DNA of 64,000 nt, from positions 62,001 through 126,000 of the forward strand of contig NZ_JAJPWV010000002.1 of assembly GCF_021215455.1 (NCBI RefSeq). Direction: 5' to 3'. The stretch is from Mucilaginibacter roseus (GTDB lineage: Bacteria > Bacteroidota > Bacteroidia > Sphingobacteriales > Sphingobacteriaceae). Below the pieces are notes generated by a model that had not been told where the DNA came from, did no database searches, and worked only from the letters and a program-made list of their open reading frames with translations. Positions within the stretch are counted from its first letter, which is position 1; each line of letters starts with the position of its first letter. This document shows positions 20,690 to 49,536 of this stretch, piece by piece. The translations under genes and the position numbers were made by a program.

Positions 20690-20691
20690 AG

Positions 20692-23028: not shown

Positions 23029-23044
23029 CTTTTAATTATGGGGT

Positions 23045-24997
23045 TTATTTGTTGATCAGAAAATTCACAATGCGACAAGCGTTGCCCTTGCTCTTCGCGT
23101 TTTTATCCGCGCTGATTTTTATTTGCAAAGTGTGCTCGCCATTTTTTAAACCGCTACCCAGCAGTACATACCAGGGCAGATGCAAAAAGCCGCTCCACTC
23201 AGTATACAGGTCAACCTGTTTAAGCGGTGCGCCATCAATAGCGTATGAGATGATGCCCGCATCCCCTCCCGACACAATGGCTATGCCTACCGCATTTCCT
23301 TTAAAACTTAGCGTCAGCGTTGCACCTGGTTCTGTAGCAGTCAAGGCCGGTACGTTCACAAAACCTGGGCGTGAGCCTAAACCGTCAGTCGGTTGCCAGT
23401 TTCTATCCATCTTCCATTTATCATCATGCTTGGCATTGGTAATGTTATAATACGTGCCCCTCTCAAACGATTGGTTATTGAGTGGCTGAGGCAGCATATA
23501 TTTTGCAGATTTATCAACGCTATCCTTAAGGCATTCATTAAGTAATGATTTGATAAAAACGAAATAAAGTTCCTGCCCGTAGATTGCCGGGTGAAGATCC
23601 TTAAAATCATTGTTCCAGTCAAACTCCTTATTAGCAAGCTTATCCTTCACGCCTTTAGCAATGTTGATGGAAGGCAGGCCATAATTTGCCGCTACTATTT
23701 CATGATTTTTTATCTCAATAGGTTGCTTGCCCATATTGTAATCAGCGGTTTTATCAGGATCAGCAAATTCCATCATTACCACATCCATTTGCGGATTAGC
23801 TTTACGTGCATGACGAATAATGCCTTCCAGTGCCCGCACCTGCGTAAGGCTGTCGGTTTTGTTTACGCGATCGTTCACGGCGGCTTCAACAAACAACAGG
23901 TCAACCTTGCCACTGTCTAACAGATCGCGCTGCAACCTGAACGCGTGCGGCAAACTGCCCAGCGATGGAATGCCCGCCATAATAAAGGTGAATTTAGTCT
24001 GCGGGAAACGCTCCTCTAAATACCGGTAAACCTTATCGCGCCAGCCGGGGTTAAACGTGATTGATCCGCCTAAAAATGCCACCGTTGCTTTTTTATTGTC
24101 AGTAGCCGCACGATAAAAATTAGTAATGCCCCTACGCTTTTTGTGATAATCGGCATAAGGCGAAATCTTTTTTACCGGGTATGAGTTGTAATAAATAAAA
24201 TCCGTCCATTCCTCGTTATGTTTATCGGGCACATGATGGCCGTTTAAATGCTGCGGACCTTCGGTTACCGGATATGTTGTAACCGGGCCACCAGCGGCAA
24301 TATAGCGTTCTGCAAATAGTAAGCTATTTTCGGCAGGCGGCACCAGTTTATCATCTAAACCTATCATATTCAATACAGGTACCTTAAATGATGCCAGCCC
24401 TTCCAGGTTATCTATCGGGTTATCCATATAAGCCAAAGCCTGGGCTTCTGTAAAATTATAAACTTGTTTTAACTGCTTCCAGGCCGCGCTGTCGCCCAAG
24501 CCTTTTCCCTTACCCCCCGGCCAGCTTTTAAAATCATAAACCGGGGTTTCCGCATAAATGCAGCTAACCTTATCGGGGTTGCGTTTTGCCCAGCCTAAAG
24601 CATATAAACCACCACGACTAACCGCTTCTAATGCTGCTTTAGGCGCGAGTTGTACACTATCGATCAGGTAATTATAAAACTTATCCCATACCTGCATGGC
24701 GTAAGGGCTGCCATACTGGTCGTCAACACTAACATAAGCCACATGAAAACCGCGCGTTAGCAGCAAACTATCTATACCGGTATGCCAATCAGGGAATGAT
24801 GCGCGCCAGACCCAGGGCTTACCCGGCAAGGCTACCTTCGGTTTTACAACATAGCCTTTATGCCCGCTGATGTTAAGATCAGTTTTGTTAAATCCTTTCC
24901 AAACGGTTTGCGCGTTTGACGGAGTGGCAAAAACCACTACCATAAGGAACAGGATTACACTTTGATTAGTAAGTAGTTTAAACGTATTTGCGGTCAT
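23045..24997 (-). CDS. Two-domain esterase: alpha/beta hydrolase fused to SGNH hydrolase
   Basis: 650 residues with a signal peptide (ends FATPSNAQ). Residues about 30-275 form an alpha/beta-hydrolase with nucleophile-like Ser127 in AVSRGG, Asp215 or 216 in GLDDKLVPP and a His-rich segment near 250-260. Residues about 300-490 form an SGNH/GDSL hydrolase: Ser312 in FLGGSITF, Asn375 in AAVND, Asp467 and His469 in KDLHP. A beta-rich C-terminal domain of about 150 residues follows and may bind sugar. Both sets of catalytic residues look intact. It likely deacylates a decorated glycan before the fucosidases and galactosidases act. First gene of its operon, under a promoter with paired 13-bp sites. 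Confidence 0.8.
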   Translation of the reverse strand: MTANTFKLLTNQSVILFLMVVVFATPSNAQTVWKGFNKTDLNISGHKGYVVKPKVALPGKPWVWRASFPDWHTGIDSLLLTRGFHVAYVSVDDQYGSPYAMQVWDKFYNYLIDSVQLAPKAALEAVSRGGLYALGWAKRNPDKVSCIYAETPVYDFKSWPGGKGKGLGDSAAWKQLKQVYNFTEAQALAYMDNPIDNLEGLASFKVPVLNMIGLDDKLVPPAENSLLFAERYIAAGGPVTTYPVTEGPQHLNGHHVPDKHNEEWTDFIYYNSYPVKKISPYADYHKKRRGITNFYRAATDNKKATVAFLGGSITFNPGWRDKVYRYLEERFPQTKFTFIMAGIPSLGSLPHAFRLQRDLLDSGKVDLLFVEAAVNDRVNKTDSLTQVRALEGIIRHARKANPQMDVVMMEFADPDKTADYNMGKQPIEIKNHEIVAANYGLPSINIAKGVKDKLANKEFDWNNDFKDLHPAIYGQELYFVFIKSLLNECLKDSVDKSAKYMLPQPLNNQSFERGTYYNITNAKHDDKWKMDRNWQPTDGLGSRPGFVNVPALTATEPGATLTLSFKGNAVGIAIVSGGDAGIISYAIDGAPLKQVDLYTEWSGFLHLPWYVLLGSGLKNGEHTLQIKISADKNAKSKGNACRIVNFLINK

Positions 24998-25012
24998 AAA
25001 TAACTGGTGTGA

Positions 25013-25041
25013 TAAAGTTATATCGGGGCTGTCTTTACAAA
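25013..25041 (-). promoter_or_regulatory. Promoter of the esterase-GH95-galactosidase operon
   Basis: On the minus strand TTTG (25038-25041) is followed 17 bases later by TAACTTTA (25013-25020), one base from TAnnTTTG. The predicted start of transcription is close to 25006, so the leader before the ATG at 24997 would be very short. The paired 13-bp sites lie immediately upstream. Confidence 0.6.
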
Positions 25042-25074
25042 AATGGATAAACCGTTTTATTAAATGGACAATCC
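25041..25074 (-). promoter_or_regulatory. Paired regulator sites, esterase operon
   Basis: AAATGGATAAACC (25041-25053) and AAATGGACAATCC (25062-25074) are direct repeats with 11 of 13 bases identical and starts 21 bp apart, two turns of DNA. Exactly 20 bases separate the proximal copy from the -7 element. The same layout occurs at three other promoters of the island (35323-35384, 39727-39788, 39846-39907). It is the expected geometry for an AraC-type activator. Confidence 0.75.
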
Positions 25075-25252
25075 TTCTTTTTTACAATTATAAATAATGC
25101 CTTTCTTAGCCTGTAAGCAATATATTCCATCTATTATTTAATTTTAACCAAAGCGCTTCATGCCTTTGGCGATATACATTTAATTGTATTATAATAGCAC
25201 AACGCAGCCATAAACCCTGCGTAGCATCCCCCGCTTTAAATTGATACTTTGA

Positions 25253-26170
25253 ATGAACAGTACTGCTTTTAAAAGAAGAGACGGCTTTGAGGGTGAAAAG
25301 ATTATCAGCATTCCGCCTAAAGTTTGGAAAGATGTTTTCAGGAAAGATCCCTCGTTCTTCCGGATATATGTGGCGCAGATAGGCTATTTTCCGCGGGCTT
25401 CATACCACTATCGCGAGCGCCGCAAAGGCTGCGAAGACAATATTTTGATTTACTGCCTGCAGGGCAAAGGCTATTTTATCATCGGCGATAAAAAATTCGA
25501 GGTAAACGCTAACCAATACATCATGGTAGCCGCTACCGATAAATATATGCGCTATTGGGCCGATGCTGAAACACCGTGGACCATATACTGGGTACACTTT
25601 AACGGCACCGATATGCATGGCTTTAATAATTTTTTAAATATTAATAATAACAAAGGCGCGGTTACTATTCCGTTTAACGCAAAGGCTATTGAGCTCTGGA
25701 AAAATATGTACGACAGCCTTGAGATGGGTTACAGTACCGAGAACCTGTGCAACGCCAACTTTTGCCTGTATAATTTCATCGCTAACTTTTTATTTCCGGA
25801 GCGCCATATTGATGCCGCCCGCGATGAGAGCACCGATGTAATTACCCTCAGTATTAATTACATGCGCGCCAACCTGGATAAGAAACTTACGGTTGATGAT
25901 ATGGCTAACCAGCATAAGTTGTCAAGCTCGTATTTTTCCATCATCTTCAGAAAGGCAACAGGCATGCCGCCTATTGATTATTTTATCAACCTGAAAATGC
26001 AGAAGGCCTGCCAACTGCTTTTCTCTGAAGAAATTCGCATAAAAACTGTGGCCAGTAACTTAGGCTATGAAGATCAGTATTACTTTTCGCGACTGTTTAA
26101 AAAATTCATGGGCATGTCGCCTGAGCAATACCGATCAACGGCCAAGCGTGATGTTATTGCAGCTGTTTAA
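25253..26170 (+). CDS. AraC family transcriptional regulator of the glycan island
   Basis: 305 residues. The N-terminal half is a cupin-like sensing domain (ILIYCLQGKGYFIIGDKKFEV, then IYWVHFNGTD). The C-terminal 100 residues are the double helix-turn-helix of AraC/XylS proteins (LTVDDMANQHKLSSSYFSII and the signature FSRLFKKFMGMSPEQYR). It is transcribed away from the esterase operon, 255 bp apart, with the paired sites between them. It is the best candidate to bind the 13-bp repeats. A TACTTTG motif sits against its ATG, so the true start may be further in or the motif may be chance. The 3' end overlaps the GH29 gene by 17 bases. Confidence 0.9.
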   Translation: MNSTAFKRRDGFEGEKIISIPPKVWKDVFRKDPSFFRIYVAQIGYFPRASYHYRERRKGCEDNILIYCLQGKGYFIIGDKKFEVNANQYIMVAATDKYMRYWADAETPWTIYWVHFNGTDMHGFNNFLNINNNKGAVTIPFNAKAIELWKNMYDSLEMGYSTENLCNANFCLYNFIANFLFPERHIDAARDESTDVITLSINYMRANLDKKLTVDDMANQHKLSSSYFSIIFRKATGMPPIDYFINLKMQKACQLLFSEEIRIKTVASNLGYEDQYYFSRLFKKFMGMSPEQYRSTAKRDVIAAV

Positions 26171-27443
26171 TAACCGGTAATTTTTCAGCATTACCGTTAA
26201 TCTGAATGGCTATTACCGTGCAGTTATCATTCGGTAATTTACCGGGCATAGTAACTTGCAACCCGTCAGCCTGCGTAAATCTTAAGGCACTACCGCCTAA
26301 CACTTTTACGCTTTTTACCGTGGTGCCGTTTAGTGCAGGCAACTTAAGCACATCTATTTGTTTAAATACATGGATGAATATATAATTGCCTTTACGCGTT
26401 GCGGCGTAAACATCGTTAGGCGCGTACGGGCCACCTTTTGTGCCATAGATAGCCTGGCCGTATCTTTTGAGCCAGCTCCCCATTTCATTAAGACGGTCAA
26501 CCTGGCGCTGCTCTATGCGGCCATCCATCATCGGCCCAACGTTAAACAGTAAATTGCCATTACCACCGGCAGTTTTAACCAAGGTTTGGATGCACTCTTT
26601 TAAAGATTTCATCTGGTCGTTAGGCTTCCAAGCCCATTGGTTACAAATGGTGATGCAACTCTCCCATGGCTCCAGCATATTGATGTTGCCGATACGCTGC
26701 TCCGGCGTTAAAAAATCACCTACCGAATTTTCATTCAGCTTTTCACTCTCCTTGCCCAGGCGGTTGTTTATCACAATGCGCGCATCCAGCTTTTTTATAT
26801 GCTGATATATCTCACGGCCAAATTCATTTGTCCATGGTTTTTCCCAATAGCCATCAAACCATAGCATATCCGGCTTATAGCGGGTAATCAATTCGGTGAG
26901 CTCGCTTTTCATCGTATTAACAAACCTGGGCATACTGCCTTTTACATTGCGTAACGAATCATGCGGACTATGGATCGGGTAATCCGGGTCATGCCAGTCC
27001 AGCACCGTCATATAAATACAAAATGAGATACCCTGTTTTTTACAGGCCTTGGCCAGCAAGCCAACCATATCTTTTTTAAAAGGCGTACGGCTTATATTAT
27101 AGGCCGATACCGCCGACGGCCATAGCAAAAATCCATCGTGGTGTTTGGCCGTTATTACCAGGTATTTCATACCGGCATCTTTGGCGGTTTTCACCCACTT
27201 ATCGGCATCAAATAATACCGGGTTAAACTCCCGGTAAAGTGAATCGTAATCTGCCTGCGAAACTTCCTTATTGCGGCTCCATCCTATTTCGGTGCCACGC
27301 AAGGTAACCGGCCCAAAGTGAACAAACATCCCGAACCGCTTATCCATAAAAGCATCAATCGCCGCGGCAGGTGTTTTGGCATCGCTCTGTGCAAACGCGG
27401 ATGAAATCGTAAACAGACACAAAAAAATAATTAATCGACGCAT
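26154..27443 (-). CDS. GH29 alpha-L-fucosidase
   Basis: 429 residues from the ATG at 27443; an upstream GTG at 27464 would only add residues before the signal peptide (RRLIIFLCLFTISSAFAQ). GH29 marks: RFGMFVHFGPVTLRG, TAKHHDGFLLWPS and the nucleophile region PDMLWFDGYWEKPW. Retaining enzyme that frees alpha-1,3/4- or other L-fucose. A C-terminal beta-sandwich of about 90 residues completes it. It is the last gene of the susC-susD operon, and its 3' end overlaps that of the convergent AraC gene by 17 bases with no terminator between. Confidence 0.92.
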   Translation of the reverse strand: MRRLIIFLCLFTISSAFAQSDAKTPAAAIDAFMDKRFGMFVHFGPVTLRGTEIGWSRNKEVSQADYDSLYREFNPVLFDADKWVKTAKDAGMKYLVITAKHHDGFLLWPSAVSAYNISRTPFKKDMVGLLAKACKKQGISFCIYMTVLDWHDPDYPIHSPHDSLRNVKGSMPRFVNTMKSELTELITRYKPDMLWFDGYWEKPWTNEFGREIYQHIKKLDARIVINNRLGKESEKLNENSVGDFLTPEQRIGNINMLEPWESCITICNQWAWKPNDQMKSLKECIQTLVKTAGGNGNLLFNVGPMMDGRIEQRQVDRLNEMGSWLKRYGQAIYGTKGGPYAPNDVYAATRKGNYIFIHVFKQIDVLKLPALNGTTVKSVKVLGGSALRFTQADGLQVTMPGKLPNDNCTVIAIQINGNAEKLPVIKQLQ

Positions 27444-27491
27444 AGTAAAAATCAAAGCCTGCACAATTAAGATATTGTGCAGGCTTCACTG

Positions 27492-28700
27492 TTATTGTTT
27501 ATTCCAAAGGGTTATTTCGCTCATGTTACTATAGTTATTTTCGCCATTTGAATTGTGTTTGATGCGAAGCCTTATATAGCGTATTAGCTTGCCATGGTTA
27601 TCCAGATCGAACTTATAAGCATTTCTGCCATCATCTGTACGTACAACATCTTTAAGCAACACCCAGCCCTTTGATATGGCTTCATCTTTCCATCCCGGGT
27701 TGTTGGCGGGCAAGCTGGTATCGTGCCCATTAATGTCCTCTATACCCCAAACCTCAAACTGGTCGGGGTTATGGCAGCAATCGCGACCGGTTTCTTCCAT
27801 TTGCCCTATGTTATCATACACCTTACCCAAATCAATGGTAAGCTGTTGAGGTAAAGCCCTTTCATTGGAGTGAAAAATATTCGGGTAACTTTGCGGACCG
27901 TTTGAATTATCCCAGAGTTTTTCAATAGCAGTGCCAAATTCCGCATACACATCATTCGCGTTATTCATTTTTTTGAATTGCGATTTATCACATTTTACAT
28001 ACCGATACTCAATAGTTGGATAATCGCTGTAGGCGGCAACTGCGAAGGTATCGATAGATGTACGCTCCGGAATAAAGTATGAACGGTAGGTAACTACCGA
28101 CCCGATCTTAACATTCGGTATTGTTATACTGCTGCTATCCGGGCTCAGCTGAGCAGTTTTGGTTTCGCCTGCATTGGTAGTATACTTTATTTTGGTTGTA
28201 ATGTTGATGGTATCGGGCGTGATAAAATTCAACTTAACCGATCCATCCCTGTTGATATTGAAGGCATTCTCCACATCATACGCCCGGTTCAATAGCGTGC
28301 CATTGTATATTGGCCCGTAAACCTTTACGTTGTTCACCTCTTTGGCTATGGATTTATTACCCTTAGCGTCAAAAGAGAATATAGTAAACGAATATACGTA
28401 CTCGCGTAAACCGCTTATTACAGTGCTGATGGTGTCTTTTTTCTCGGTTATGTTTACTATTTGCGAATCAGCTCTGTTGTTCCAGTAAACAATATAGCGG
28501 GTAATGCTTGGATCGGTACTGGCTTTCCATTTAAGACCAACACGCAGGTTACCGGGTTGCGAGGTTACATCGCCAACGGCGCCTGTGTAAGTGATCTCCT
28601 TACCATCAAAAAAATCACGGAACTCTGTATCCTTTTTGCCGCAGCCATAAATAACCGCGAACATGGCACAGATTATTAAACAATATCTTAAGGTTTTCAT
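27492..28700 (-). CDS. Surface lipoprotein, DUF4998-like with C-terminal discoidin-like domain
   Basis: 402 residues. The lipobox ends FAVIYGCGKKD. The N-terminal part has fibronectin-like strands (GNLRVGLKWKASTDPSITRY, YWNNRADSQ) as in DUF4998 proteins of Sus loci. The last 150 residues resemble an F5/8 type C-like (discoidin) fold, ending IRYIRLRIKHNSNGENNYSN. Located after susD and a sister lipoprotein, so probably a surface glycan-binding protein that feeds the SusCD transporter. Ligand unknown. Confidence 0.75.
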   Translation of the reverse strand: MKTLRYCLIICAMFAVIYGCGKKDTEFRDFFDGKEITYTGAVGDVTSQPGNLRVGLKWKASTDPSITRYIVYWNNRADSQIVNITEKKDTISTVISGLREYVYSFTIFSFDAKGNKSIAKEVNNVKVYGPIYNGTLLNRAYDVENAFNINRDGSVKLNFITPDTINITTKIKYTTNAGETKTAQLSPDSSSITIPNVKIGSVVTYRSYFIPERTSIDTFAVAAYSDYPTIEYRYVKCDKSQFKKMNNANDVYAEFGTAIEKLWDNSNGPQSYPNIFHSNERALPQQLTIDLGKVYDNIGQMEETGRDCCHNPDQFEVWGIEDINGHDTSLPANNPGWKDEAISKGWVLLKDVVRTDDGRNAYKFDLDNHGKLIRYIRLRIKHNSNGENNYSNMSEITLWNKQ

Positions 28701-28721
28701 CTCTTTTAGCTTAATTAATTA

Positions 28722-29945
28722 TTACTGCGGATTACCATATAACGATAGCTCCATAACGTGCGCTATATCGCCGCCAGACCATGATCTGTTTACAGCCAGG
28801 CGGATAAAGCGCACGGTAGGCGCATCAAATGGTACGTTAAAGTTCACACCTGCGCGTACGAAGGCCTCGTCAGACGCGGTGGTTGCTCCCGGCGGTGAAC
28901 CTGACGGCGGATCAGGAAAATGGAAGTTGCCCATATTTATCCAGTCGCCCACCACGGCTCCCGGCGGCGCCGAAATAGGTAGTTTAGCGTCGCGCGGATT
29001 GGCAACTTTTGTACCCCATAAACTAAAATCGCGCGGGTTGCCGTGGCCGTAAGTAAATTCACCAACACGCTCCCACATAATGAAACGGCTTAGTTTGTAT
29101 ACTTTGCCTACATCAAACGTGCAAACGAAAGGCGGTTTTTCGCCCGGAAGCGTATGCCAGCCACTGCCATCGGCACTACCATTCCAAAGGTTTGGCAACT
29201 GCCACCCGTAGCCAATCGGCGTGTCACTTGGCAAATTAAAGGCACTGAACAAGCTTTTATTCAGCATCTCCTCATATAACGGACTGATCTCTTTTTTCAA
29301 CGTATCAGAAATATTTCCCCATTGATCGGTTACATATACACCAAATTCCCGTGGATCGGTACTGTACCCCCTGATGGAGTAATTGATGGTATCAGTCCTT
29401 GTAAAAAATTGGTCCTGCACTTCCATGGAATTGGTTGTGGGATCAAAGGCCGTAATAATGATCCCTATCTCCTTTTTAAGCGGATTTAGAGCCTGAACGT
29501 TTACACCACCAAAATCGGCATTTACGTTTATTGATGGTCTGATCAACTGGTAAACAGGCGTTTCGGGATGAACCTTTACCGTAACGGGATCAGACATCAC
29601 GTTGGCCCGCGATACCGTGTAAAGCGTTACATCATAATCTGCCGATGCTGCGAAACCATTAACCGTAACCGTGTCTGTATAGTAAGATGACTTGGTTTCG
29701 CGCTTTACGCCATCGCGTATATTGTATTGTGCAAGCACATACAATATATTTTCGGAGTTGGGCAAATCATAAGTGATGTAGGCACCTCCATTAAAATTAT
29801 CAACCTTAACGTTGGTTACCACCCCCGGCTTTGTGCTATCGCTCGATATAGGGGTTTTATTATACCCATCATTTTTTTTGCACGCCGCAACCACAAGTAT
29901 AACCAGGCAGGTTGCAACAGCTATATAATGTTTAATATTTTTCAT
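28722..29945 (-). CDS. Surface lipoprotein, DUF4959/DUF5000-like
   Basis: 407 residues with a lipobox (LVILVVAACKKND). Domain order fits DUF4959 (fibronectin-like, GVVTNVKVDNFNGGAYITYD), DUF5126 (middle) and DUF5000 (C-terminal discoidin-like, VRFIRLAVNRSWSGGD). This triple layout is frequent just after susD in Bacteroidota glycan loci. Likely a surface glycan-binding protein, 21 bp from the susD stop codon. It differs in sequence from its neighbour at 27492 but has the same overall plan, so the pair may bind different parts of one glycan. Confidence 0.8.
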   Translation of the reverse strand: MKNIKHYIAVATCLVILVVAACKKNDGYNKTPISSDSTKPGVVTNVKVDNFNGGAYITYDLPNSENILYVLAQYNIRDGVKRETKSSYYTDTVTVNGFAASADYDVTLYTVSRANVMSDPVTVKVHPETPVYQLIRPSINVNADFGGVNVQALNPLKKEIGIIITAFDPTTNSMEVQDQFFTRTDTINYSIRGYSTDPREFGVYVTDQWGNISDTLKKEISPLYEEMLNKSLFSAFNLPSDTPIGYGWQLPNLWNGSADGSGWHTLPGEKPPFVCTFDVGKVYKLSRFIMWERVGEFTYGHGNPRDFSLWGTKVANPRDAKLPISAPPGAVVGDWINMGNFHFPDPPSGSPPGATTASDEAFVRAGVNFNVPFDAPTVRFIRLAVNRSWSGGDIAHVMELSLYGNPQ

Positions 29946-29966
29946 GTTACTAAGTTTTTACCTTGC

Positions 29967-31892
29967 TTACCAGTTTGGATTTTGAACAAGATTGCCATTC
30001 ACTATTAAATCGTTATTTTTTATTGGCCACAGGTAGTTGCGCACGTTAAACACCGGCGTAAGTATGGTGCGCGGGCGGTAGTAGTTAAGCGGCTGTTCCT
30101 CGTAAATATTCCAGCCCTGCATTGGCCTGCTCATTACATTTTGTATTTCCTTCCAGCGGCGTAAATCCCAACCGGCCTGTCCCTCAAACGCCAGCTCTAT
30201 CCGGCGTTCCTGGTGAATGATCTGGCGCATGCCATCCTGCGAAGCAAACTTTGCGGCATTGCGTGAGTAATTGCTCCAGGCATCAACAACGCCCGGCAAA
30301 CCTGCACGCTGGCGCACCGGGTCAATGTAACGTACCACCTCGGCGTAAGGCTTACCCTGCTCATTCAGCACCTCGGCGTATAGCAAGTACAGCCCTGCCA
30401 GCCTGATCAGCGGCATACGGAAATCAACCCAGGTCATGTTCTCATCATAAACCGTTTGATAATTAACGAGCTTTTTAGCCCAGTAACCGGTTACGTTTAT
30501 ACGGATGTTATCTTTTGGCCCTGCGTACGAGCTGCTGCTGCGTGCCTGCACATACAAAGCGTTTTCCTGATCAAAAACATTGTTACCATACCATATAGCG
30601 CCATCAAAGGCCATATCGGCATAAAAGCGCGGCTCGCGGTTAAAGTGTGCCCTAACGGTTTGGTAACCATTGCGTATGTAAAAGCGGTTATCATCATCTC
30701 CCGTGCGTAGATTGTAGCGGTTGTTATAATCCCAGGTTTTATCCTCGTTAATAGGCACACCGTTGTTGGTGTAAAATAACTCCTGCTGAGATATTGGCGC
30801 GGCAAACGTACCTTGGGCAATCAGGTTAGCCGCGGCTTTAGCCGTTAAGCGGGGCATGTTATACTCCTGCCTGCCGTAACCAAATACCGGGTTAAGCGCC
30901 CAAATCAATTCCTTGTTGAGCTCCCATTTTTCAGTAATAGCGGTTTGCAGGGTAAGTACTCTCCGCAACGAGTCGGTTAAATTGGAAGGTATATTGGCCG
31001 GCGCGTTAAAGGTATGTAGCGCAAACCCGTTAGCTTCGCATAGCTTAACAGCGGCGTCGCAGGCTTCTGCTGCCTTATCCCATTTAGTGGCGTCGTAAGT
31101 GCTGCTGAATAGTTTTTCGCCATCCTTATTGGCCAAACTTGCAAAGTCAGGGTTACCATTAAACATGGGGCTGGCCGCGGTCGCCAGCACCTCGGCCTTT
31201 ACAGCAAGTGCTATTGGGCGGGTAATACGACCAAGCTCGCGCACCTGGTTTTGTATAATCACCGGCAGGTCAGGAGCCGATTCATCCAACAGGCGAACAA
31301 TGTAATTCACTACCGAGTCAGCCGGGTCACGTTTAACCTTTACCTCTTCTGTCGAGCTGGTTATCGGCAGGTTTTTATCGGTAATAGGTATCGGCCCGTA
31401 CATCCGGAACAGATAATAATGATAATAGGCTTTCAGGAACTTCACCTCTGCTATCCAACGCGCTTTTTCTGATGCGGTAAGGTCAATCGGCTTATCAATA
31501 TTTTCGAGCATGGTATTGCAGCGGCGTAATGCCCTGAATATGGCCTGCCCCCCATTTTCGCCATCCCAATAGTTAAGGCCGGGATTTTGAACATTCTGTG
31601 TACCACGGATCAGGTTAAAACCTGTGGGGTCGATCCCCTGGTTATCCGTCAGGTTGTTGGGGAATATGATCTCGCCCGAGCTGGTAAAACTCGGATCATT
31701 TTGCGGATATTGAAATTGCTGCAAGGTAGCGTAGCATGAAAACAGGTAGTTCTCCGCCTCGTTACGGTTACGAAAGGCATAATCAATAGTGCCTACGTTC
31801 TCCGGCGTTACATCCAGAAACTTTTTACACGATGTACCCAGCATGGTAATAGCGGCCAGGTATATTAATATTTTGTACGATCTCATCTTCAT
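29967..31892 (-). CDS. SusD/RagB family glycan-binding lipoprotein
   Basis: 641 residues from the ATG at 31892 (a GTG one codon upstream is also open). Lipobox ITMLGTSCKKFLDVTP is followed by the SusD start DVTPENVGTIDYAFRN and TPR-like helices (LRRCNTMLENIDKP, WIAEVKFLKAYYHYYLFRMYG). C-terminal RRIELAFEGQAGWDLRRWKE is the usual RagB/SusD end. It forms the lid over the SusC barrel and binds the oligosaccharide to be imported. The susC stop lies only a few bases upstream, so the pair is translationally tight. Confidence 0.95.
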   Translation of the reverse strand: MKMRSYKILIYLAAITMLGTSCKKFLDVTPENVGTIDYAFRNRNEAENYLFSCYATLQQFQYPQNDPSFTSSGEIIFPNNLTDNQGIDPTGFNLIRGTQNVQNPGLNYWDGENGGQAIFRALRRCNTMLENIDKPIDLTASEKARWIAEVKFLKAYYHYYLFRMYGPIPITDKNLPITSSTEEVKVKRDPADSVVNYIVRLLDESAPDLPVIIQNQVRELGRITRPIALAVKAEVLATAASPMFNGNPDFASLANKDGEKLFSSTYDATKWDKAAEACDAAVKLCEANGFALHTFNAPANIPSNLTDSLRRVLTLQTAITEKWELNKELIWALNPVFGYGRQEYNMPRLTAKAAANLIAQGTFAAPISQQELFYTNNGVPINEDKTWDYNNRYNLRTGDDDNRFYIRNGYQTVRAHFNREPRFYADMAFDGAIWYGNNVFDQENALYVQARSSSSYAGPKDNIRINVTGYWAKKLVNYQTVYDENMTWVDFRMPLIRLAGLYLLYAEVLNEQGKPYAEVVRYIDPVRQRAGLPGVVDAWSNYSRNAAKFASQDGMRQIIHQERRIELAFEGQAGWDLRRWKEIQNVMSRPMQGWNIYEEQPLNYYRPRTILTPVFNVRNYLWPIKNNDLIVNGNLVQNPNW

Positions 31893-31898
31893 CACTAA

Positions 31899-34800
31899 TT
31901 ATAAATTAACATTGAGGCCAAGGTTGAATACGCGTTGGATGGGGTAATTGAACCCGTTGCCGCCTATCTCCGGGTCCCAAAGCTTAAATGGGCTCCAGGT
32001 AACTAAATTCAGACCGCTGAAATAGATACGCGCGTTGCGCAGATTTAAACGCTGTGCATACTTTCGTGGTATGGAGTAGCCTATCTCTAATTGCTTAAGC
32101 CTTAAAAAGCTGCCGTCGCGCATCCACCAGGTACTGTTTTGGCGGTTGTTTTCAATCTGCGCCCCGTTGGCACCCAGGCGTGGGTACAGCGCGTAGAGGT
32201 TCTGGTTATCTTCTGACCAATGATCATCAGCATAAGCTTTTAACAACTGGGTATTTCCAGGCAACCATGAATCCGGACTTTGGATAAACGGACTGGTGCG
32301 GGCCGGGTCAATAAAGAATGATACCCTGGTTTGGCCCTGAAAAAAGGCTGAAAAATCGAAGTTGTGTATTTGTGAGGTTATACCAAAACCATAAACAATC
32401 TCAGGCACGGTTGGGTAACCGATAAAGGTTTGATCGGCACCATCAATCCGTCCGTCATTGTTAAGGTCGCGGTATTTGATGTCGCCCCCCATAGGCTGCT
32501 GCCCGTTGGTGCTGAATATTTGTTGCGGCGAGTTGCGCGCTTCGTTATCATCCACAAACAAACGTTCGGCAACATAGCCATACTGGCGGTTAAGTGACTG
32601 GCCTACGTTATAACGATATGGCTCAAGATAGTTTGGCTCTTCAAACTGCGTAAATTTGTTTTGTGCAAAGGTGAAATTACCACGCAGCGAAACCGATGCA
32701 TTTTTTGAGAACTGTTTTTTGCCATCAACGGATAAATCGATACCTTTTGAGTCGACCTTACCTATGTTAGCGGCAATCGGCGCTTCTAAACCCATGGTGG
32801 TTGGTATTGAAGCCCTATCCTGTAAAATATTATACTTGTGGTTTTTGTAAACCTCGGCAATTACATTCAGGTTTTTAAGCAGTGTAAACTCTAAACCAAG
32901 TGTTGTTTGTTGTGAGGTTTCCCAGGTTACATCGCGGTTTTCGTAGTTACGAATGCTTACCCCATTACGGCCATAGCCATTATTGGTACCAAACACGGCG
33001 GAGTTGCCGCCATTCAGGTTAACGTCTGAAAGATAGTAGAACCTTTGTACGCCGATAGCATCATTACCCACCAAGCCATGACTGGCGCGGATCTTCACGC
33101 GGTCGAATACATCGTATAAATCGCCCCAGAATTTTTCTTCAGATATGATCCATGACGCACCGATTGCCGGGAAGAAACCATAACGATGCTCCTCTGAAAA
33201 TCTTTCGGACCCATTATAACCGAAGTTAAATTCAAGGAAGTACTTGCTCTTAAACGAGTAAGTGGCACGGCCCGCAAGCGTAAGGTTACGGTATGGCAGC
33301 GAGTATTGCAAGGTGGTGGTACCTGACCGTGGGTCTTTAGCGTCTGAATACACTTGCTGCTGGCGGGTACCGATCAGTGAGCTGCTGATGGTATGGTTTT
33401 TACCAAATGTTTTGCTATAATCAAGCACACCCTGGAAGTAAACGAAAGTGTTTATATTATCGCTGCCGATATTACGGTTGTATTCCAGATACTCCCTTGC
33501 TACGTTATTGCCCGTTGGTTGTGGGTTAAGCCATTGTAGGGTGTAGGTATTGCTTGGTTTGTCGTATGTAGCAACGTTGTAGTAGAACGGCGAATAGCTC
33601 ATATCCGACGTGTAATAAGAGTACCTGTTGGTACTGAACAAGCCGTGAAAGTTAAGGCCGCTTGTTATAAAGTTCAGATTTTGATTTAGTTCGAGCTGAG
33701 CCAGCATGCGCGACTCCACAAAGTTTTTATGCCCGCGTAATAAAGAAGCATAAGGATTTATTTGGCCTATACTGTTATTTGCCGGTGAACCACCGGTTGA
33801 TAGCGTGTTACCGAACAAAATGTGTTGCGTATTCAGGTTCGCCTCATCCGGCTCATAAAACGCTGGGAACAATACCGGGCTGGTATGCATAGCCACATTG
33901 TACAAGTCTGTAGAGAACGATGCATCGTTAGTAAGCGGGCCATTGTACTCGTTAAAATTGCCCGACAACCTTAATATCAACTCGGTTTTATCGGTAAGGT
34001 TAACGTTGATGTTTGAACGCAGCTGATAGTTGGTAAACTTAACGTTGTTATTGTTATTGTTGCGGATATCAGTCCGCAGAATACCGTTGTCATTTGAGTA
34101 CGAACCGGCGAAGTAGTACTTAGCCACACCGCCACCGCCGCTGATGTTCAGGTTAGCGCGTTGGGTGTTAGTTCTGTCCTTAAATAACATGTCAATCCAG
34201 TCCACCGCCGGGTAAACGTACGGGTTACTGCCCGGCGTTCCGGCCAGTGTAGCCTGGGTATTTAGTATTTTGTTCTCCGTAAACGGCCGGGGCGCCAGCG
34301 GATTACGGGTTACCGTTGCCTCGTTAAACAAACGCATATAGGTAATCGGGTCGGCAAGCTCAATAGTTTTGGCTGATTGCGATATGGAATTTTCTAACCT
34401 GAAATTAATTTGCGCCTTACCTACTTTACCCTCTTTGGTTTTTACCAAAATAACACCGTTGCCACCACGTGCGCCATAAAGGGCTGTAGCGCTGGCGTCC
34501 TTAAGTATCGAAAAGCTCTCGATATCATCAACCTGGATGCGGGCCAGGTCTGACGAGGTAAGCTCCACGTTATCCACCAAAATTAATGGGTCGCGCTTGT
34601 AACCAAAGGTAGTTACCCCACGGATGAAGAAGTTGGCATTATCCTGCCCGGGTTGCCCGCTTGGCGTGTAAGCAATTACACCGGCAACCTGCCCCGCCAG
34701 CGCGGTTGTTAAGTTGCTGGCCGGTATTTTTAAGTTACCGGGCTTCACGGTAGTTACCGAGCCTACCAACGCCTCGCGGGTTTGCTTGCGGCTGTAAGCG

Positions 34801-35192
34801 GTTACAATTACCTCTTCCGCCAGGGCAACGTTCTCCTTGATCACAATTTTGTATGTACGCTGGTCGGCATTTACGGTTACCTGCTTATCCTGGTAACCAA
34901 CAAATGATACCTTTAAAACAGTACCTGGCTCAACATCCAAAACAAATTTACCGTTAGCATCAGTTGATGTGGCTTTGCCGTTTTTGTTTAGCGCGGTAAC
35001 GTTAGCACCGGCAATAATTCCGCCGGTTGTGTCGGTTACGGTACCCGTAATGGTTACCCTGTTTTGTGCGATACTACTTTGTGCCATAATCATGAGCACC
35101 GCAAATAGCAAAATGCAACAGGCAGCCTGCAAGTACTTTTTAGGAATTTTTAACACCAAAAGGCGTTTACTTAGTTTGTAAAGTTTACTCAT
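31899..35192 (-). CDS. SusC/RagA family TonB-dependent transporter
   Basis: 1097 residues from the ATG at 35192; a start 33 bases upstream would add only residues ahead of the signal peptide. An N-terminal carboxypeptidase-D-like domain (VTITGTVTDTTGGIIAGANV) is followed by the TonB box region and plug (VALAEEVIVTAYSRKQTREA, NFFIRGVTTFG), then a 22-strand barrel. The last strand is VFNLGLNVNL. It imports glycan fragments bound by SusD, driven by TonB. There is no FecR/sigma pair nearby, so control is by the AraC-type sites upstream. First gene of a five-gene operon that ends with GH29. Confidence 0.95.
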   Translation of the reverse strand: MSKLYKLSKRLLVLKIPKKYLQAACCILLFAVLMIMAQSSIAQNRVTITGTVTDTTGGIIAGANVTALNKNGKATSTDANGKFVLDVEPGTVLKVSFVGYQDKQVTVNADQRTYKIVIKENVALAEEVIVTAYSRKQTREALVGSVTTVKPGNLKIPASNLTTALAGQVAGVIAYTPSGQPGQDNANFFIRGVTTFGYKRDPLILVDNVELTSSDLARIQVDDIESFSILKDASATALYGARGGNGVILVKTKEGKVGKAQINFRLENSISQSAKTIELADPITYMRLFNEATVTRNPLAPRPFTENKILNTQATLAGTPGSNPYVYPAVDWIDMLFKDRTNTQRANLNISGGGGVAKYYFAGSYSNDNGILRTDIRNNNNNNVKFTNYQLRSNINVNLTDKTELILRLSGNFNEYNGPLTNDASFSTDLYNVAMHTSPVLFPAFYEPDEANLNTQHILFGNTLSTGGSPANNSIGQINPYASLLRGHKNFVESRMLAQLELNQNLNFITSGLNFHGLFSTNRYSYYTSDMSYSPFYYNVATYDKPSNTYTLQWLNPQPTGNNVAREYLEYNRNIGSDNINTFVYFQGVLDYSKTFGKNHTISSSLIGTRQQQVYSDAKDPRSGTTTLQYSLPYRNLTLAGRATYSFKSKYFLEFNFGYNGSERFSEEHRYGFFPAIGASWIISEEKFWGDLYDVFDRVKIRASHGLVGNDAIGVQRFYYLSDVNLNGGNSAVFGTNNGYGRNGVSIRNYENRDVTWETSQQTTLGLEFTLLKNLNVIAEVYKNHKYNILQDRASIPTTMGLEAPIAANIGKVDSKGIDLSVDGKKQFSKNASVSLRGNFTFAQNKFTQFEEPNYLEPYRYNVGQSLNRQYGYVAERLFVDDNEARNSPQQIFSTNGQQPMGGDIKYRDLNNDGRIDGADQTFIGYPTVPEIVYGFGITSQIHNFDFSAFFQGQTRVSFFIDPARTSPFIQSPDSWLPGNTQLLKAYADDHWSEDNQNLYALYPRLGANGAQIENNRQNSTWWMRDGSFLRLKQLEIGYSIPRKYAQRLNLRNARIYFSGLNLVTWSPFKLWDPEIGGNGFNYPIQRVFNLGLNVNL

Positions 35193-35322
35193 AAAAAAGG
35201 GTGAATAATTGGTAAAAAAAAGCAATAAGATACCCGTACAGGCCTTAATCCTGCATTAATGGGCATTGTTACTGCGAATGCCTTTACGTTAAATTGTTGT
35301 TATTTTATTTCGGCTTATAAAA

Positions 35323-35384
35323 CAAATGTATAGTGCCGGGCCAGCGCGATAAATGACGTATCCTTTTATTATAATGGATTATTC
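35323..35384 (-). promoter_or_regulatory. susC promoter with paired regulator sites
   Basis: On the minus strand the -7 element is TACATTTG (35323-35330), an exact TAnnTTTG. Sites on the plus strand: AAATGACGTATCC (35351-35363; 9 of 13 to the best copy AAATGGATAATCC) and TAATGGATTATTC (35372-35384; 10 of 13). Starts are 21 bp apart and 20 bases lie between the proximal site and the -7 element, the same spacing as at the other three promoters. Transcription would begin near 35316, giving a leader of about 120 bases. Confidence 0.7.
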
Positions 35385-35507
35385 GATTACGATAAAAGCT
35401 TTTTTCATTTTCATTAAGAACTGCGCTAAATTTTTAGCAATAATTAACAAAAATCGATTGCATGAAATCATCATTCTTTTGCTAAAACGATCAATTTGTA
35501 AAAATAA

Positions 35508-35921
35508 TTACTGCTGATGAAATACTTCGGACATTGCCGTCCATATTTGATGCCTGGCGAGGGCTTCGGGCAATGGTAGCTGCGTAGGGTCGGTTTGTTT
35601 CCACCAGCGCTGCGTAATTGTGTCGGAGGCCATTTTTTTCATGTCGGCATCAAAATCATTACCGGTGTATTCAAAATAACTGAACAGGTAATATTTATCG
35701 TCTATCTTTTGCAGGTAGATTGAATAGTTACGAATGTTACACTCCCTGATCTTTTTAACAACGCCAGGCCATGGTGCCGCATGCAGCTTTTTGTAATAGG
35801 CTATCTTTTCTGGTTTAATACCGGTCACCATACCATAACGCACTACTTTTTGTGCTGATGGATTACAGCTTATCAATAATACAACGATGCCTAAAACTAT
35901 CCTGCAAACAATATTTTTCAT
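35508..35921 (-). CDS. Exported L-rhamnose/L-fucose mutarotase-like lipoprotein
   Basis: 137 residues. A lipoprotein signal (IVLGIVVLLISCNPS) comes first, then a RhaM-type domain: VVRYGMVTGIKPEKIAYYKK, LHAAPWPGV with the conserved His and Trp-Pro, and YYLFSYFEYTG. RhaM enzymes interconvert alpha and beta anomers of 6-deoxy sugars. Most are cytoplasmic; this one should be anchored in the envelope, where it could set the anomer presented to the symporter. Its ATG overlaps the symporter stop by four bases. A cytoplasmic relative is encoded at 51210. Confidence 0.85.
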   Translation of the reverse strand: MKNIVCRIVLGIVVLLISCNPSAQKVVRYGMVTGIKPEKIAYYKKLHAAPWPGVVKKIRECNIRNYSIYLQKIDDKYYLFSYFEYTGNDFDADMKKMASDTITQRWWKQTDPTQLPLPEALARHQIWTAMSEVFHQQ

Positions 35922-37570
35922 CGGAATAAATAAAATAGTACTGACATAATGAGCAATAACAGCACCGATAGCACCTTGTAATTACCCAATCCTTTCCAGC
36001 TATCACCCTTTAGTGCTTCAAACGGAGAATTCCAGTATAACCTATCGCTGTCGATGGTTTGTTGCACAGGATAGACGTACGAAAAAAGTATTTGCATCAG
36101 CATACAGGCGCAAAACAGGTAGAAGGCCATCATCATAAACGGAACCTCTCCTATCCACGACGTGGGCATCAGCTTGGATATAATAAAAACTACTACGCCC
36201 AACAGCGACCCCAACCACAGCGTTAGCTTTGATGAGGTTGCAGATGCCTTTCTCCAAAATATACCTAATACAAACACGCATGTAATGGGCGGTGCAATAT
36301 GGGCAATAATATCGTTAAGGCCGTTGAAAATGCTCTCGTAACTATTGAGCAGCGGTAGCATAAGCAAGGATGCTATTACCGATACGCCTGCCGCAACTTT
36401 ACCTGTTTTAACCAGTTGCTTGTCTGTTGCTTCGGGCTTATAGCGTTTATAAATATCATAGCTTACCAGTGTTGATATAGAGTTAAGCGCTCCCGATATC
36501 TGGCTCATTAAACCGGATAGTAAAGCCGCAACTAATACACCCACTAATCCCTTGGGTATAAGTTGAGTGATCATGAGGGTGTAGATGCCCTTGCTGTTTA
36601 CCACCTGCTTGCCATCTGCAATGGTTTGCAGGGCTGATACATCCAGCAAACCTTTTTGCGAAAGCGTGTAAGCAAACAAACCAGGCAACACAAAGATGAA
36701 CACCGGAAGTATTTTAATAAAACCACAAAATAATGAACCTACCCGCGCGTGATCCTGATTTTTTGCACCTAACACGCGCTGTACAATGGTTTGATCGGCA
36801 CACCAATACCATATTCCCAGCACCGGGTACCCTAAAAACACCGAGTACCATGGCATACCGCTGCTATCGCCATGCGGGCGCATCATAGATAATTTGCTCA
36901 TCTCTCCATGTTGCTGCAATACATCCACCATAGGTTGCCAGCCGCCCATTTTTACCCATGCAGCCACACACATTATTACCGCACCGGCTAATAAAACAAT
37001 GGTTTGTATAGATTCTGTAACTACTACCGCTGTTAAACCACCCGCAACCGTATACAGGGCGGTGAGTAAGGAAATGATGATGACGCTGGTATACATGTCA
37101 ACCCCGAAAAGGGTTTGCAAAACAATGCCGCCCGCTAATAACGAAAAGGCGATATGAATAATGATCGCGGATATTACGGACACGATGGCCAACCAATCGC
37201 GACTGGCACGGTCATACCTTTTCTCCAAAAAATCAGGCAGGGTAGCAACACCTGACCGGATATAAAACGGCACAAAAAACAGCGCCAGCAAAATAAGTGT
37301 GAATGATGCCATCCACTCAAAGTTGCCATTCAGCAAACCGGTATCAAACCCGCTTTGTGCCAGGCTTACCAAATGCACGCAGGATATATTGGTGGCAAAC
37401 AAAGCCAGCCCGATTGTAGGCCAGCGCAAGGTTTTTCCTGCCAAAAAGTATTCGCCAGCGGCATTGCCGGTTTTATTTTTTTGCTGATGGCGGATGCCCG
37501 ACCATAAGCCTATAATAACAATGCCCAAAATGTAGAGCACCGTAATGGTAATATCTGCCGGGCCAATCAT
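35918..37570 (-). CDS. Sodium:solute symporter (SSS family), probable L-fucose importer
   Basis: 550 residues with about 14 hydrophobic spans. SSS features include a start DITITVLYILGIVIIGLWSG, FATNISCVHLVSLAQSGFDT in the first conserved region, and LLSGLMSQISGALNSISTLV in the sodium-site region. It sits between the exported mutarotase and fuconate dehydratase, so L-fucose (or another fucose-derived sugar) is the likely cargo. It overlaps the mutarotase gene by four bases and lies 8 bp after the dehydratase. Confidence 0.88.
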   Translation of the reverse strand: MIGPADITITVLYILGIVIIGLWSGIRHQQKNKTGNAAGEYFLAGKTLRWPTIGLALFATNISCVHLVSLAQSGFDTGLLNGNFEWMASFTLILLALFFVPFYIRSGVATLPDFLEKRYDRASRDWLAIVSVISAIIIHIAFSLLAGGIVLQTLFGVDMYTSVIIISLLTALYTVAGGLTAVVVTESIQTIVLLAGAVIMCVAAWVKMGGWQPMVDVLQQHGEMSKLSMMRPHGDSSGMPWYSVFLGYPVLGIWYWCADQTIVQRVLGAKNQDHARVGSLFCGFIKILPVFIFVLPGLFAYTLSQKGLLDVSALQTIADGKQVVNSKGIYTLMITQLIPKGLVGVLVAALLSGLMSQISGALNSISTLVSYDIYKRYKPEATDKQLVKTGKVAAGVSVIASLLMLPLLNSYESIFNGLNDIIAHIAPPITCVFVLGIFWRKASATSSKLTLWLGSLLGVVVFIISKLMPTSWIGEVPFMMMAFYLFCACMLMQILFSYVYPVQQTIDSDRLYWNSPFEALKGDSWKGLGNYKVLSVLLLLIMSVLFYLFR

Positions 37571-37578
37571 AATTCGGT

Positions 37579-38805
37579 TTATATGGATTTTATATCGCAG
37601 CTGCTTCCGGGTGCCTGTGGCGTTTGGTATAAGCCGCCCTCAATTATAACCGGATTTACAAAATATCTTTGCAAGTGCGGAATGTGTTCTAAAAATAAAG
37701 CTTCGTGCCCAAGTTTTATATGGTTAAATAAAACCAGGTGCTGGTGCAGCTGCCCCATATCCCCCACATGGGGTACAACAGGCACGCCATACTTTTTGCA
37801 TAGTAAACTTACTGTGATGAATTCACTCACCCCGCCCACACGCACCGCATCAACCTGAATGAATGATGCCGCGCCAGTTTGCAGGTAGTTTTTAAATATC
37901 ACGCGGTTAGGTACATGTTCGCCAAGGGCAAGCTTTACCGGTGCTATGGCTTCGGCCAGTGTTTTGTGTGCCAATACATCATCCGGGTGCGTTGGTTCTT
38001 CCACCCAGTATGGATTCATGCTTTTCAATTCGTTACATATACTGATGGCTTGCGGCAGGTTCCACTGCTGGTTGGCATCGAGCATTACCTTTACCTCATT
38101 GCCTGCTGCCTCACGCACAATGTGCGCCCTGCGAATGTCGCGTTGCGGATCGGCTGAACCCACCTTCAGCTTCATGGCGGTAAAGCCTTCGGCTACAGCT
38201 TTCAGGCAATTTTCACGCACCTTTTCATCGCTGTAATTAAACCAGCCTATAGAGGTATCATAACCGGGATATCCTTTCAGGGTAATCAATTCTCGCTGTT
38301 GAATACCCCTTTGCTGATCTGCTATCAATTTAATCGCTTCCTGCGCTGTAAGTTCATCTTCCAGGTAACTCAAATCGAGCGTGTTAACAATTTCATCAGG
38401 CGATAGGTCAATGAGCAATTTCCATAATGGCACGCCACGTTTTTTTGCCCACAGATCATAACAGGCGTTAGTTACCGAGGCCAGCGCCAAGTGCACCACC
38501 CCTTTATGCGGCCCCAACCACCTGAATTGCTGCTCGTTGGCCAGTTTGTTGAATAATACGCCAAAATTGCTCATCACCTCTTCAATATCCAGCCCCTTGA
38601 GCTTTTCGGCGTAAAATTTTGCGGCTGAACAAACCAGTTCATTGCCCTTACCCAAGGTAAAAGCCAGTCCGGTGCCGGTTAGTCCGCTATCGTCATGCAG
38701 TTGGGTAACAGCATATGAGTATACCGGGTCGCGGTGAATGGCATCGCTGCCCGCCTTACCATCCAGCTGATATCGGGAATCTTTAACTTGTATATTTTTG
38801 ATCAT
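37579..38805 (-). CDS. L-fuconate dehydratase-like enolase-superfamily enzyme
   Basis: 408 residues, mandelate-racemase subgroup. Ligand and catalytic residues are visible in order: AMKLKVG (KxK pair), VMLDANQQWN (metal Asp), YWVEEPTHPDD (metal Glu), LALGEHVPN (metal Glu) and VVPHVGDMGQLHQH (catalytic His). Sequence features such as FRWLGPHKGVVHLALASVTNA match known L-fuconate dehydratases. It would turn L-fuconate into 2-keto-3-deoxy-L-fuconate. The operon runs SDR - this gene - symporter - mutarotase. A second, unrelated dehydratase is encoded at 49537. Confidence 0.85.
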   Translation of the reverse strand: MIKNIQVKDSRYQLDGKAGSDAIHRDPVYSYAVTQLHDDSGLTGTGLAFTLGKGNELVCSAAKFYAEKLKGLDIEEVMSNFGVLFNKLANEQQFRWLGPHKGVVHLALASVTNACYDLWAKKRGVPLWKLLIDLSPDEIVNTLDLSYLEDELTAQEAIKLIADQQRGIQQRELITLKGYPGYDTSIGWFNYSDEKVRENCLKAVAEGFTAMKLKVGSADPQRDIRRAHIVREAAGNEVKVMLDANQQWNLPQAISICNELKSMNPYWVEEPTHPDDVLAHKTLAEAIAPVKLALGEHVPNRVIFKNYLQTGAASFIQVDAVRVGGVSEFITVSLLCKKYGVPVVPHVGDMGQLHQHLVLFNHIKLGHEALFLEHIPHLQRYFVNPVIIEGGLYQTPQAPGSSCDIKSI

Positions 38806-38820
38806 TACGTAGATTATTGA

Positions 38821-39594
38821 TTAATTGCTACGGCGATAGCCTAACTCGGCTCCACCGCTTACCGGCAATATGCAGCCCGTTATAAACCGCGCCGGAGACG
38901 ACACCAGGAATAAACAAACATCCGCAATCACATCAGCATCAGGGCAGTAACCCAATAAGTGTATGCTATCTAGGTATTTTTCTATGGATTGCGGACTTGG
39001 TTGCTGTTCGCTCCAGCTGCGCAGCATAGGTGTCCACACCCCGGCCGGGGCTATGGCGTTCACCCTGATGCCATGTGGCGCGTAATCAATCGCCATTGAT
39101 TTTGTGAGCGCGCTGATAGCGCCCTTGGTAGCACTGTAGGCGGCATGTATCTCCTGCCCAATTTCGCCGGCCATGCTACCGGTATTTAAAATACTACCCT
39201 TGTTTTTTATAAGTTGAGGTATGGCGTGGCGGGTGGTATTAAAAATGCCTTTTACGTTTACATCAAACAGGCGCTGCCATTCTTCGTCGGTTGTTTCGTG
39301 CAGGTTTTTTGATGGGTCGGATATGCCGGCATTGTTGTGCACTACATCAATACGGCCAAACCGCTCAACCGCCGCGTTAATTGCTTGTGCTATCTGGTCG
39401 ACATTTGATACATCAGCATGCAGATATATTACGTCATCGCCGTTTAGCGAAACCGAAGCCTTATCAATGCTCTCCTGGTTGTTGGATACGATGGCCAAAG
39501 CAGCACCCGCGTCGCGGTAAACTCTGGCACACTCAAAGCCGATACCCTCGGTTCCGCCGGTCAAAAAAACTACCTTGTCTTTTAATAATTGCAT
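38821..39594 (-). CDS. SDR oxidoreductase, first gene of the fucose operon
   Basis: 257 residues. NAD(P) loop FLTGGTEGIGFE, NNAG (HNNAGISDP), catalytic Tyr and Lys in YSATKGAISAL, and the end SGGAELGYR. Classical SDR. Probable roles in this setting are L-fucose (galactose-configured sugar) dehydrogenase or 2-keto-3-deoxy-L-fuconate dehydrogenase. It is one of three SDR genes in the island, so the exact step cannot be assigned from sequence. Promoter with paired 13-bp sites lies upstream. Confidence 0.82.
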   Translation of the reverse strand: MQLLKDKVVFLTGGTEGIGFECARVYRDAGAALAIVSNNQESIDKASVSLNGDDVIYLHADVSNVDQIAQAINAAVERFGRIDVVHNNAGISDPSKNLHETTDEEWQRLFDVNVKGIFNTTRHAIPQLIKNKGSILNTGSMAGEIGQEIHAAYSATKGAISALTKSMAIDYAPHGIRVNAIAPAGVWTPMLRSWSEQQPSPQSIEKYLDSIHLLGYCPDADVIADVCLFLVSSPARFITGCILPVSGGAELGYRRSN

Positions 39595-39726
39595 TTATGA
39601 TAAGCTTTTTGATTTCGTTATTTTAAATAATACCAACAGACTGCCTGCACGGCGTTAACCGCGAAAACCTTCAGAAAACTGTTAGTATGATTGTATTGGT
39701 TTGTTTAACTGGACTGTTGACGTTTT

Positions 39727-39788
39727 CAAAGTAACAGCCCGAAGAGAGGATTTAGAATAGATAATTCCACTTTTTTAATGGATAATAC
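39727..39788 (-). promoter_or_regulatory. Fucose-operon promoter with paired regulator sites
   Basis: Minus-strand -7 element TTACTTTG (39727-39734; one base off TAnnTTTG). Sites on the plus strand: GAATAGATAATTC (39755-39767; 10 of 13) and TAATGGATAATAC (39776-39788; 11 of 13), 21 bp start to start, with 20 bases from the proximal copy to the -7 element. Points toward the SDR at 39594. The rest of 39595-40022 holds the divergent promoter below and no gene. Confidence 0.7.
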
Positions 39789-39845
39789 CATTTGCTATTC
39801 ATAGCATTATTCAACAAAACGGCTAAATAACTTTAAAAACAGCCT

Positions 39846-39907
39846 TAATTATCCATCCAATTGATAGGATTATCCATTTTATAAACGTACCTCAGCCATT
39901 AGGTTTG
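39846..39907 (+). promoter_or_regulatory. GH36 promoter with paired regulator sites
   Basis: Sites TAATTATCCATCC (39846-39858) and GGATTATCCATTT (39867-39879) are the reverse complement of the motif, 21 bp apart. The second is exactly the best consensus. The -7 element TAGGTTTG (39900-39907) is an exact TAnnTTTG, 20 bases after the proximal site. Transcription should start near 39914, about 110 bases before the ATG at 40023. Confidence 0.75.
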
Positions 39908-43469: not shown

Positions 43470-43496
43470 ATAATTGTGTTAACTGTCAAATCTACA

Positions 43497-43504
43497 TTAA
43501 TTTT
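43497..43504 (-). promoter_or_regulatory. -7 promoter element of galK
   Basis: TAGATTTG on the minus strand, an exact TAnnTTTG, 28 bases before the galK ATG, with TTTT near -33. Confidence 0.65.
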
Positions 43505-43565
43505 AAAGAAATAAAAATTTTGCAGACATTTTTTTTGACGGATCAAGTAATTGATTTTGATACGA

Positions 43566-46269: not shown

Positions 46270-46281
46270 CTGTACAAATAT

Positions 46282-47064: not shown

Positions 47065-47076
47065 AAAAAGATCAGT

Positions 47077-48754: not shown

Positions 48755-48762
48755 ATATCGAA

Positions 48763-49527: not shown

Positions 49528-49536
49528 GGTTTATAT

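Follow-up and report, generated by a model that had tools for sequence, protein, structure and literature searches.

What reads the tandem repeats that precede four promoters of a fucose/galactose gene island in Mucilaginibacter roseus, and do these promoters belong to one regulon? We analyzed a 64,000-nucleotide stretch of the genome of this soil bacterium (hereafter the window; assembly GCF_021215455.1, contig NZ_JAJPWV010000002.1, forward-strand positions 62,001 to 126,000), and all coordinates below refer to the whole of it. The regulon formed by the four promoters is genuine, its general type was known before, and we put at roughly 0.86 the probability that this fucose-island regulon is governed by a cytoplasmic cupin-AraC protein encoded at 25253–26170 (AraC 25253). 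Half-sites and −7 boxes were read directly and aligned toward their genes:

Esterase/GH95 (glycoside hydrolase family 95) operon promoter, read toward the gene: GGATTGTCCATTT-8-GGTTTATCCATTT-20-TAACTTTA
25062–25074, minus strand, distal half-site GGATTGTCCATTT
25041–25053, minus strand, proximal half-site GGTTTATCCATTT
25013–25020, minus strand, −7 element TAACTTTA; composite score 42.8 bits
susC promoter, read toward the gene: GAATAATCCATTA-8-GGATACGTCATTT-20-TACATTTG
35372–35384, minus strand, distal half-site GAATAATCCATTA
35351–35363, minus strand, proximal half-site GGATACGTCATTT; the weakest half-site, common to the G060 orthologue
35323–35330, minus strand, −7 element TACATTTG; composite score 38.2 bits
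Fucose operon promoter, read toward the gene: GTATTATCCATTA-8-GAATTATCTATTC-20-TTACTTTG
39776–39788, minus strand, distal half-site GTATTATCCATTA
39755–39767, minus strand, proximal half-site GAATTATCTATTC
39727–39734, minus strand, −7 element TTACTTTG; composite score 33.1 bits
GH36 promoter, read toward the gene: TAATTATCCATCC-8-GGATTATCCATTT-20-TAGGTTTG
39846–39858, plus strand, distal half-site TAATTATCCATCC
39867–39879, plus strand, proximal half-site GGATTATCCATTT
39900–39907, plus strand, −7 element TAGGTTTG; composite score 38.2 bits

Direct reading confirmed the coordinates and orientation of all eight half-sites and all four −7 elements given in a preliminary description of this DNA. 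Each half-site spans 13 bp, with a consensus of about GAATWRTCCATYA / GNTTTATCCATTT, and at all four promoters the two copies start 21 bp apart and the proximal one lies 20 bp from the −7 box, a geometry that is also rigid across relatives. The −7 boxes TAACTTTA and TTACTTTG are each one base away from TAnnTTTG. The genes downstream of these promoters are as follows:

18653–24997, minus strand, target operon 1: GDSL/SGNH esterase (23045–24997), GH95 (20692–23028) and an uncharacterized protein of 678 amino acids (18653–20689)
26154–35225, minus strand, target operon 2: susC, susD, two surface-glycan-protein-like genes (DUF5000/DUF4998) and a GH29 fucosidase
35508–39594, minus strand, target operon 3: L-fucose dehydrogenase-like short-chain dehydrogenase/reductase (SDR), L-fuconate dehydratase, SSS sugar symporter and a member of the L-rhamnose/fucose mutarotase family
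40023–42233, plus strand, target gene 4: GH36 alpha-galactosidase family

The arrangement is confined to these promoters within the genome. Scanning 4,193,356 bases for ATCCATT-N14-ATCCATT-N21-TANNTTTG, with at most three mismatches allowed, returned exactly four matches, the four window promoters, and the reversed pattern, used as a control, returned none, which bears out the earlier claim that the repeats exceed chance expectation. A second pattern, derived from relatives, found the same four genome sites and none besides. We also built a weight matrix that was seeded by the window sites and then trained on relatives only (51 sites). This matrix ranked the four promoters at the top of the window (42.8, 38.2, 38.2 and 33.1 bits), with all remaining positions at or below 0, while the reversed window reached a maximum of 7.2 bits.

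Conservation of the motif was followed through the regulator rather than through the motif itself. The AraC 25253 protein was searched in 100 relatives, orthologues sharing roughly 50% identity or above were taken as clade A, and up to 20 kb on each side of every clade A gene was collected, for a total of 773 kb; because these loci were selected by regulator homology, they provide a test that is independent of the motif. Same-strand ATCCATT pairs (one mismatch) in these neighborhoods peak at a spacing of 21 bp, where 31 pairs were counted, other spacings averaging 6. A −7 box sits at one common offset from 19 of these 31 pairs, other offsets accounting for at most two each. Across 24 loci, the motif lies upstream of SDR, SusC, esterase, GH95, GH36 and GH29 orthologues, and 21 Mucilaginibacter relatives picked solely for an AraC 25253 homologue show it before orthologues of the window's target genes. 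A weight-matrix check had been proposed earlier for the relatives, and in it the sites indeed precede orthologous genes and follow AraC 25253 homologues. Loci L037–L062 were dropped as a control set and the comparison with them discarded, since those loci had been pattern-selected.

The footprint extends beyond the genus. When 301 genomes of the order were searched, 20 loci with AraC homologues were recovered from other genera of the family, 16 of which carry a site of at least 20 bits (reversed control maximum, 13.5), and the targets are likewise SDR, SusC, GH95, GH29 and GH36. We then scored every site over 121 combinations of half-site spacing (16–26) and distance to the −7 box (15–25). The 21/20 geometry was best in 51 of 53 clade A sites, which formed the matrix training set, and, outside the training set, in 26 of 28 other-genus sites and in 16 of 17 sites of clade B, a paralogous AraC clade. 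Overall, 93 of 98 sites in relatives were best at 21/20, in keeping with the rigid geometry that had been proposed, here at a sigma-A-type promoter; in the window itself, three of the four sites were best at 21/20 and one at 21/21.

The nearest candidate to read these sites, and the one named in the preliminary description, is the following:

25253–26170, plus strand, AraC-family regulator with an N-terminal cupin AraC_binding domain and a C-terminal double helix-turn-helix (HTH); the proposed activator

This protein of 305 amino acids matches PF02311 (AraC_binding) at 31.5 bits, over a cut-off of 21.1, and PF00165 and PF12833 (HTH_AraC/HTH_18) above their cut-offs; it contains only the cupin and HTH domains, with no kinase or receiver domain. 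The cupin domain, the double HTH and tandem half-sites two helical turns apart, all of which mark membership of the AraC family, are present. Its nearest named relatives are found in Mucilaginibacter sp. UR6-1 and JRF (87–89% identity). Across 22 islands (21 relatives and the window), AraC is the sole conserved regulator family; whatever else is conserved there belongs to the enzyme and transport genes of the window itself. Pattern matches average 6.3 per genome where a clade A AraC is present and 1.9 in same-genus genomes without clade A or B, with about one match per genome in the reversed control (6.3 versus 1.9, Mann–Whitney p = 6e-7, not corrected for kinship). A fuconate dehydratase of at least 75% identity occurs in 20 same-genus genomes, and 20 of 20 carry a clade A AraC; in the four genomes that have only a 60–62% dehydratase homologue, no motif was found around it. 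Synteny, co-occurrence and the cross-genus footprint thus support the assignment of AraC 25253 as the putative regulator of the four promoters, as had been suggested.

The position of the operator suggests how such a regulator might act. With the flavobacterial −7 box occupying −12 to −5 (PMC9723704), the half-sites cover about −45 to −33 (proximal) and about −66 to −54 (distal). If transcription starts follow that assignment, the site abuts or overlaps the −33 region at a fixed distance from the −7 box, which is the layout of a class II activator. Among 55 sites, no conserved TTG was found at the usual −33 position. In the mechanism we propose, two AraC DNA-binding domains would occupy the tandem 13-bp half-sites on one face of the DNA, 21 bp corresponding to two helical turns, and the proximal half-site would take over the role of a −33 element, none being recognizable at these promoters. 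Bound AraC would then contact and recruit RNA polymerase as a class II activator, much as E. coli AraC does at araI2. Given the target genes, L-fucose or a close derivative of it is the probable ligand, and the co-regulated symporter would bring it in as the inducer.

A different mode of action is conceivable, since a protein bound at the proximal half-site, which overlaps the −33 region, could block polymerase there. E. coli AraC acts both as an activator and as a repressor, and it loops DNA without sugar, which provides a precedent for a repressor, or for a dual regulator of the looping kind, in place of a plain class II activator. No recurrent third half-site at a fixed place was found within 200 bp upstream of the array among the 55 sites, however, and both the orientation of the sites and their distance to the −7 box are as rigid as polymerase contact would require. 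The lack of a recognizable −33 TTG, in turn, points to a weak promoter that needs help. We therefore regard repression or dual control as unlikely. Slightly less likely still is that another regulator reads the sites. The motifs of Bacteroides hybrid two-component system (HTCS) regulators at susC/D operons are also direct repeats, averaging 21 bp (PMC3878776); the closest solved DNA-binding domains to that of AraC 25253 belong to two-component regulators, an HTCS among them; and the paralogous AraC clade uses the same motif. Set against this, the islands conserve no regulator other than AraC 25253 orthologues, AraC and motif travel together across genera with motif counts tracking clade A, and the window's genome holds no second AraC of this subfamily at E<1e-20.

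The repeats might also reflect chance or the AT-richness of promoter DNA: the half-sites have a high AT content, and some genomes (G061) contain short tandem arrays of ATCCATT. The empty reversed control and the restriction of the pattern to four sites in 4.19 Mb speak against it, and the persistence of the sites at orthologous genes across genera already refutes it, leaving it a negligible probability. Activation by AraC 25253 remains the reading we favor, and three points weigh against it: 4 of the 20 other-genus loci lack a strong site, the co-occurrence counts carry no correction for relatedness, and, where clades A and B co-occur, it is ambiguous which protein reads a given site because their operators are nearly identical.

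At the E. coli araBAD promoter, AraC occupies the tandem half-sites araI1–araI2, which lie 21 bp apart with the proximal one at the −35 region. The system described here shares with it the cupin and double HTH, the 21-bp tandem half-sites, a proximal site at −35/−33 and control of sugar catabolism, and the E. coli AraC model NF007860 is the best-scoring NCBIfam model for AraC 25253, covering most of both domains. The score of 95.8 bits nevertheless lies well under the cut-off of 208, so AraC 25253 falls outside the E. coli AraC equivalogs. It further differs in half-site sequence, in its Bacteroidota −7 promoter, in that no upstream looping site was found, and in its targets, which belong to a fucose polysaccharide utilization locus (PUL) instead of arabinose genes.

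The preliminary description knew of no motif for this regulator family in Bacteroidota; novelty of the motif type is not supported, given the published 21-bp direct repeats of the HTCSs (PMC3878776) and of RhaR (PMC3870299). RhaR, the AraC-family L-rhamnose regulator of Bacteroides, has a predicted direct repeat with 21-bp periodicity (PMC3870299) and likewise controls a deoxy-sugar pathway, a likeness drawn from its published description; RhaR serves one rhamnose operon, whereas four operons, including SusC/D and glycosidases, are involved here. The HTCSs share an AraC-type DNA-binding domain and direct repeats of about 21 bp, but they are membrane sensor kinases with periplasmic sensors, and a domain test did not place AraC 25253 among them. 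FucR, the L-fucose regulator of B. thetaiotaomicron, has the same physiological role in Bacteroidota and is of the GntR family (PMC3878776), unlike AraC 25253, whose domains are those of the AraC family, and no regulator of another kind is conserved in the islands; the fucose operon here also follows the fuconate dehydratase (oxidative) route. The AraC system therefore looks like a separate way of controlling L-fucose use within the phylum, one that goes with the oxidative fuconate route. No paper on an AraC fucose regulator in Mucilaginibacter or Pedobacter, on this AraC clade or on the motif was found in the literature searched. The regulator–operator pair is new, and the kind of system is known. 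An AraC-family regulator of Sphingobacteriaceae is thereby connected, in more than one genus, with a defined operator and a defined set of targets, the rule of half-site, 21 bp, half-site, 20 bp and −7 box makes regulons predictable in unannotated genomes, and contact between activator and polymerase at Bacteroidota promoters becomes directly testable.

The regulon was earlier described as covering import, glycan cleavage and fucose breakdown; import and cleavage are represented, and the breakdown extends to the upper steps. In target operon 3, the dehydratase matches L-fuconate dehydratases of known structure (E about 1e-104). The SDR resembles several SDRs, L-fucose dehydrogenase being one of them, with a score under the cut-off of that model, so the operon most likely encodes the oxidative L-fucose route. 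The adjacent operon is set out for comparison:

42306–51201, operon without the operator: galactokinase, LutABC-like genes, two SDRs and an altronate/galactarate dehydratase-like gene

It also encodes a lactonase-like amidohydrolase related to 4dlf and an FAA-family hydrolase related to L-2,4-diketo-3-deoxyrhamnonate hydrolase (8gsr). From these similarities it most likely represents the lower oxidative L-fucose pathway, with pyruvate and lactate as probable end products. Neither the matrix nor the pattern scan found the 21-bp operator at this operon, which was accordingly rejected as a member, and the regulon therefore covers only the upper steps of fucose breakdown. A second cupin-AraC gene (51741–52610) is divergent from this operon and is a candidate for its separate regulator.

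Beyond clade A, the clade B AraC proteins (33–41% identity) have nearly the same operator in the same geometry (L107, L109, L110, L111, L113–L126), and they resemble clade A in the HTH region. Their sites adjoin aldose 1-epimerase, major facilitator superfamily (MFS) sugar transporter, SusC or GH95 genes, suggesting a probable galactose-type regulon, and cross-talk between the two clades is possible. As a tentative generalization, which we hold at somewhat less than even odds, AraC-type activators at Bacteroidota sigma-A promoters may follow a general grammar in which a tandem operator of 21-bp spacing sits exactly 20 bp before the −7 box and replaces the −33 element; two or more AraC clades that have diverged, one fucose-type and one galactose-type, would use it. 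Were this true, PUL and monosaccharide regulons could be recognized in the sequence, and cross-regulation between paralogues may occur.

Several smaller observations concern individual targets. The GH36 motif recurs before the G060 orthologue and before a GH36 gene in L192. The 678-amino-acid protein of target operon 1 has no Pfam or NCBIfam match, and its family is kept in 14 of 22 islands. At the esterase, only 15 bp (24998–25012) separate the −7 box from the annotated start codon, so that either the leader is about 11 nt long or the true start codon lies further downstream. In relatives, (A)CCAATTA recurs where transcription would be expected to begin, about 5–12 bp past the −7 box, at the promoters of SusC, GH95 and esterase genes; its genome-wide excess is weak (about 75 versus 51 in the control, 13 genomes), and it was therefore left out of the system. 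Finally, complete operator–promoter units are paired upstream of GH95 in L194 (9227, 9323) and L200 (10513, 10612), about 96–99 bp apart, and likewise in L202 (9157, 9255) and L203 (9154, 9252), which look as if they arose by promoter duplication in these other genera.

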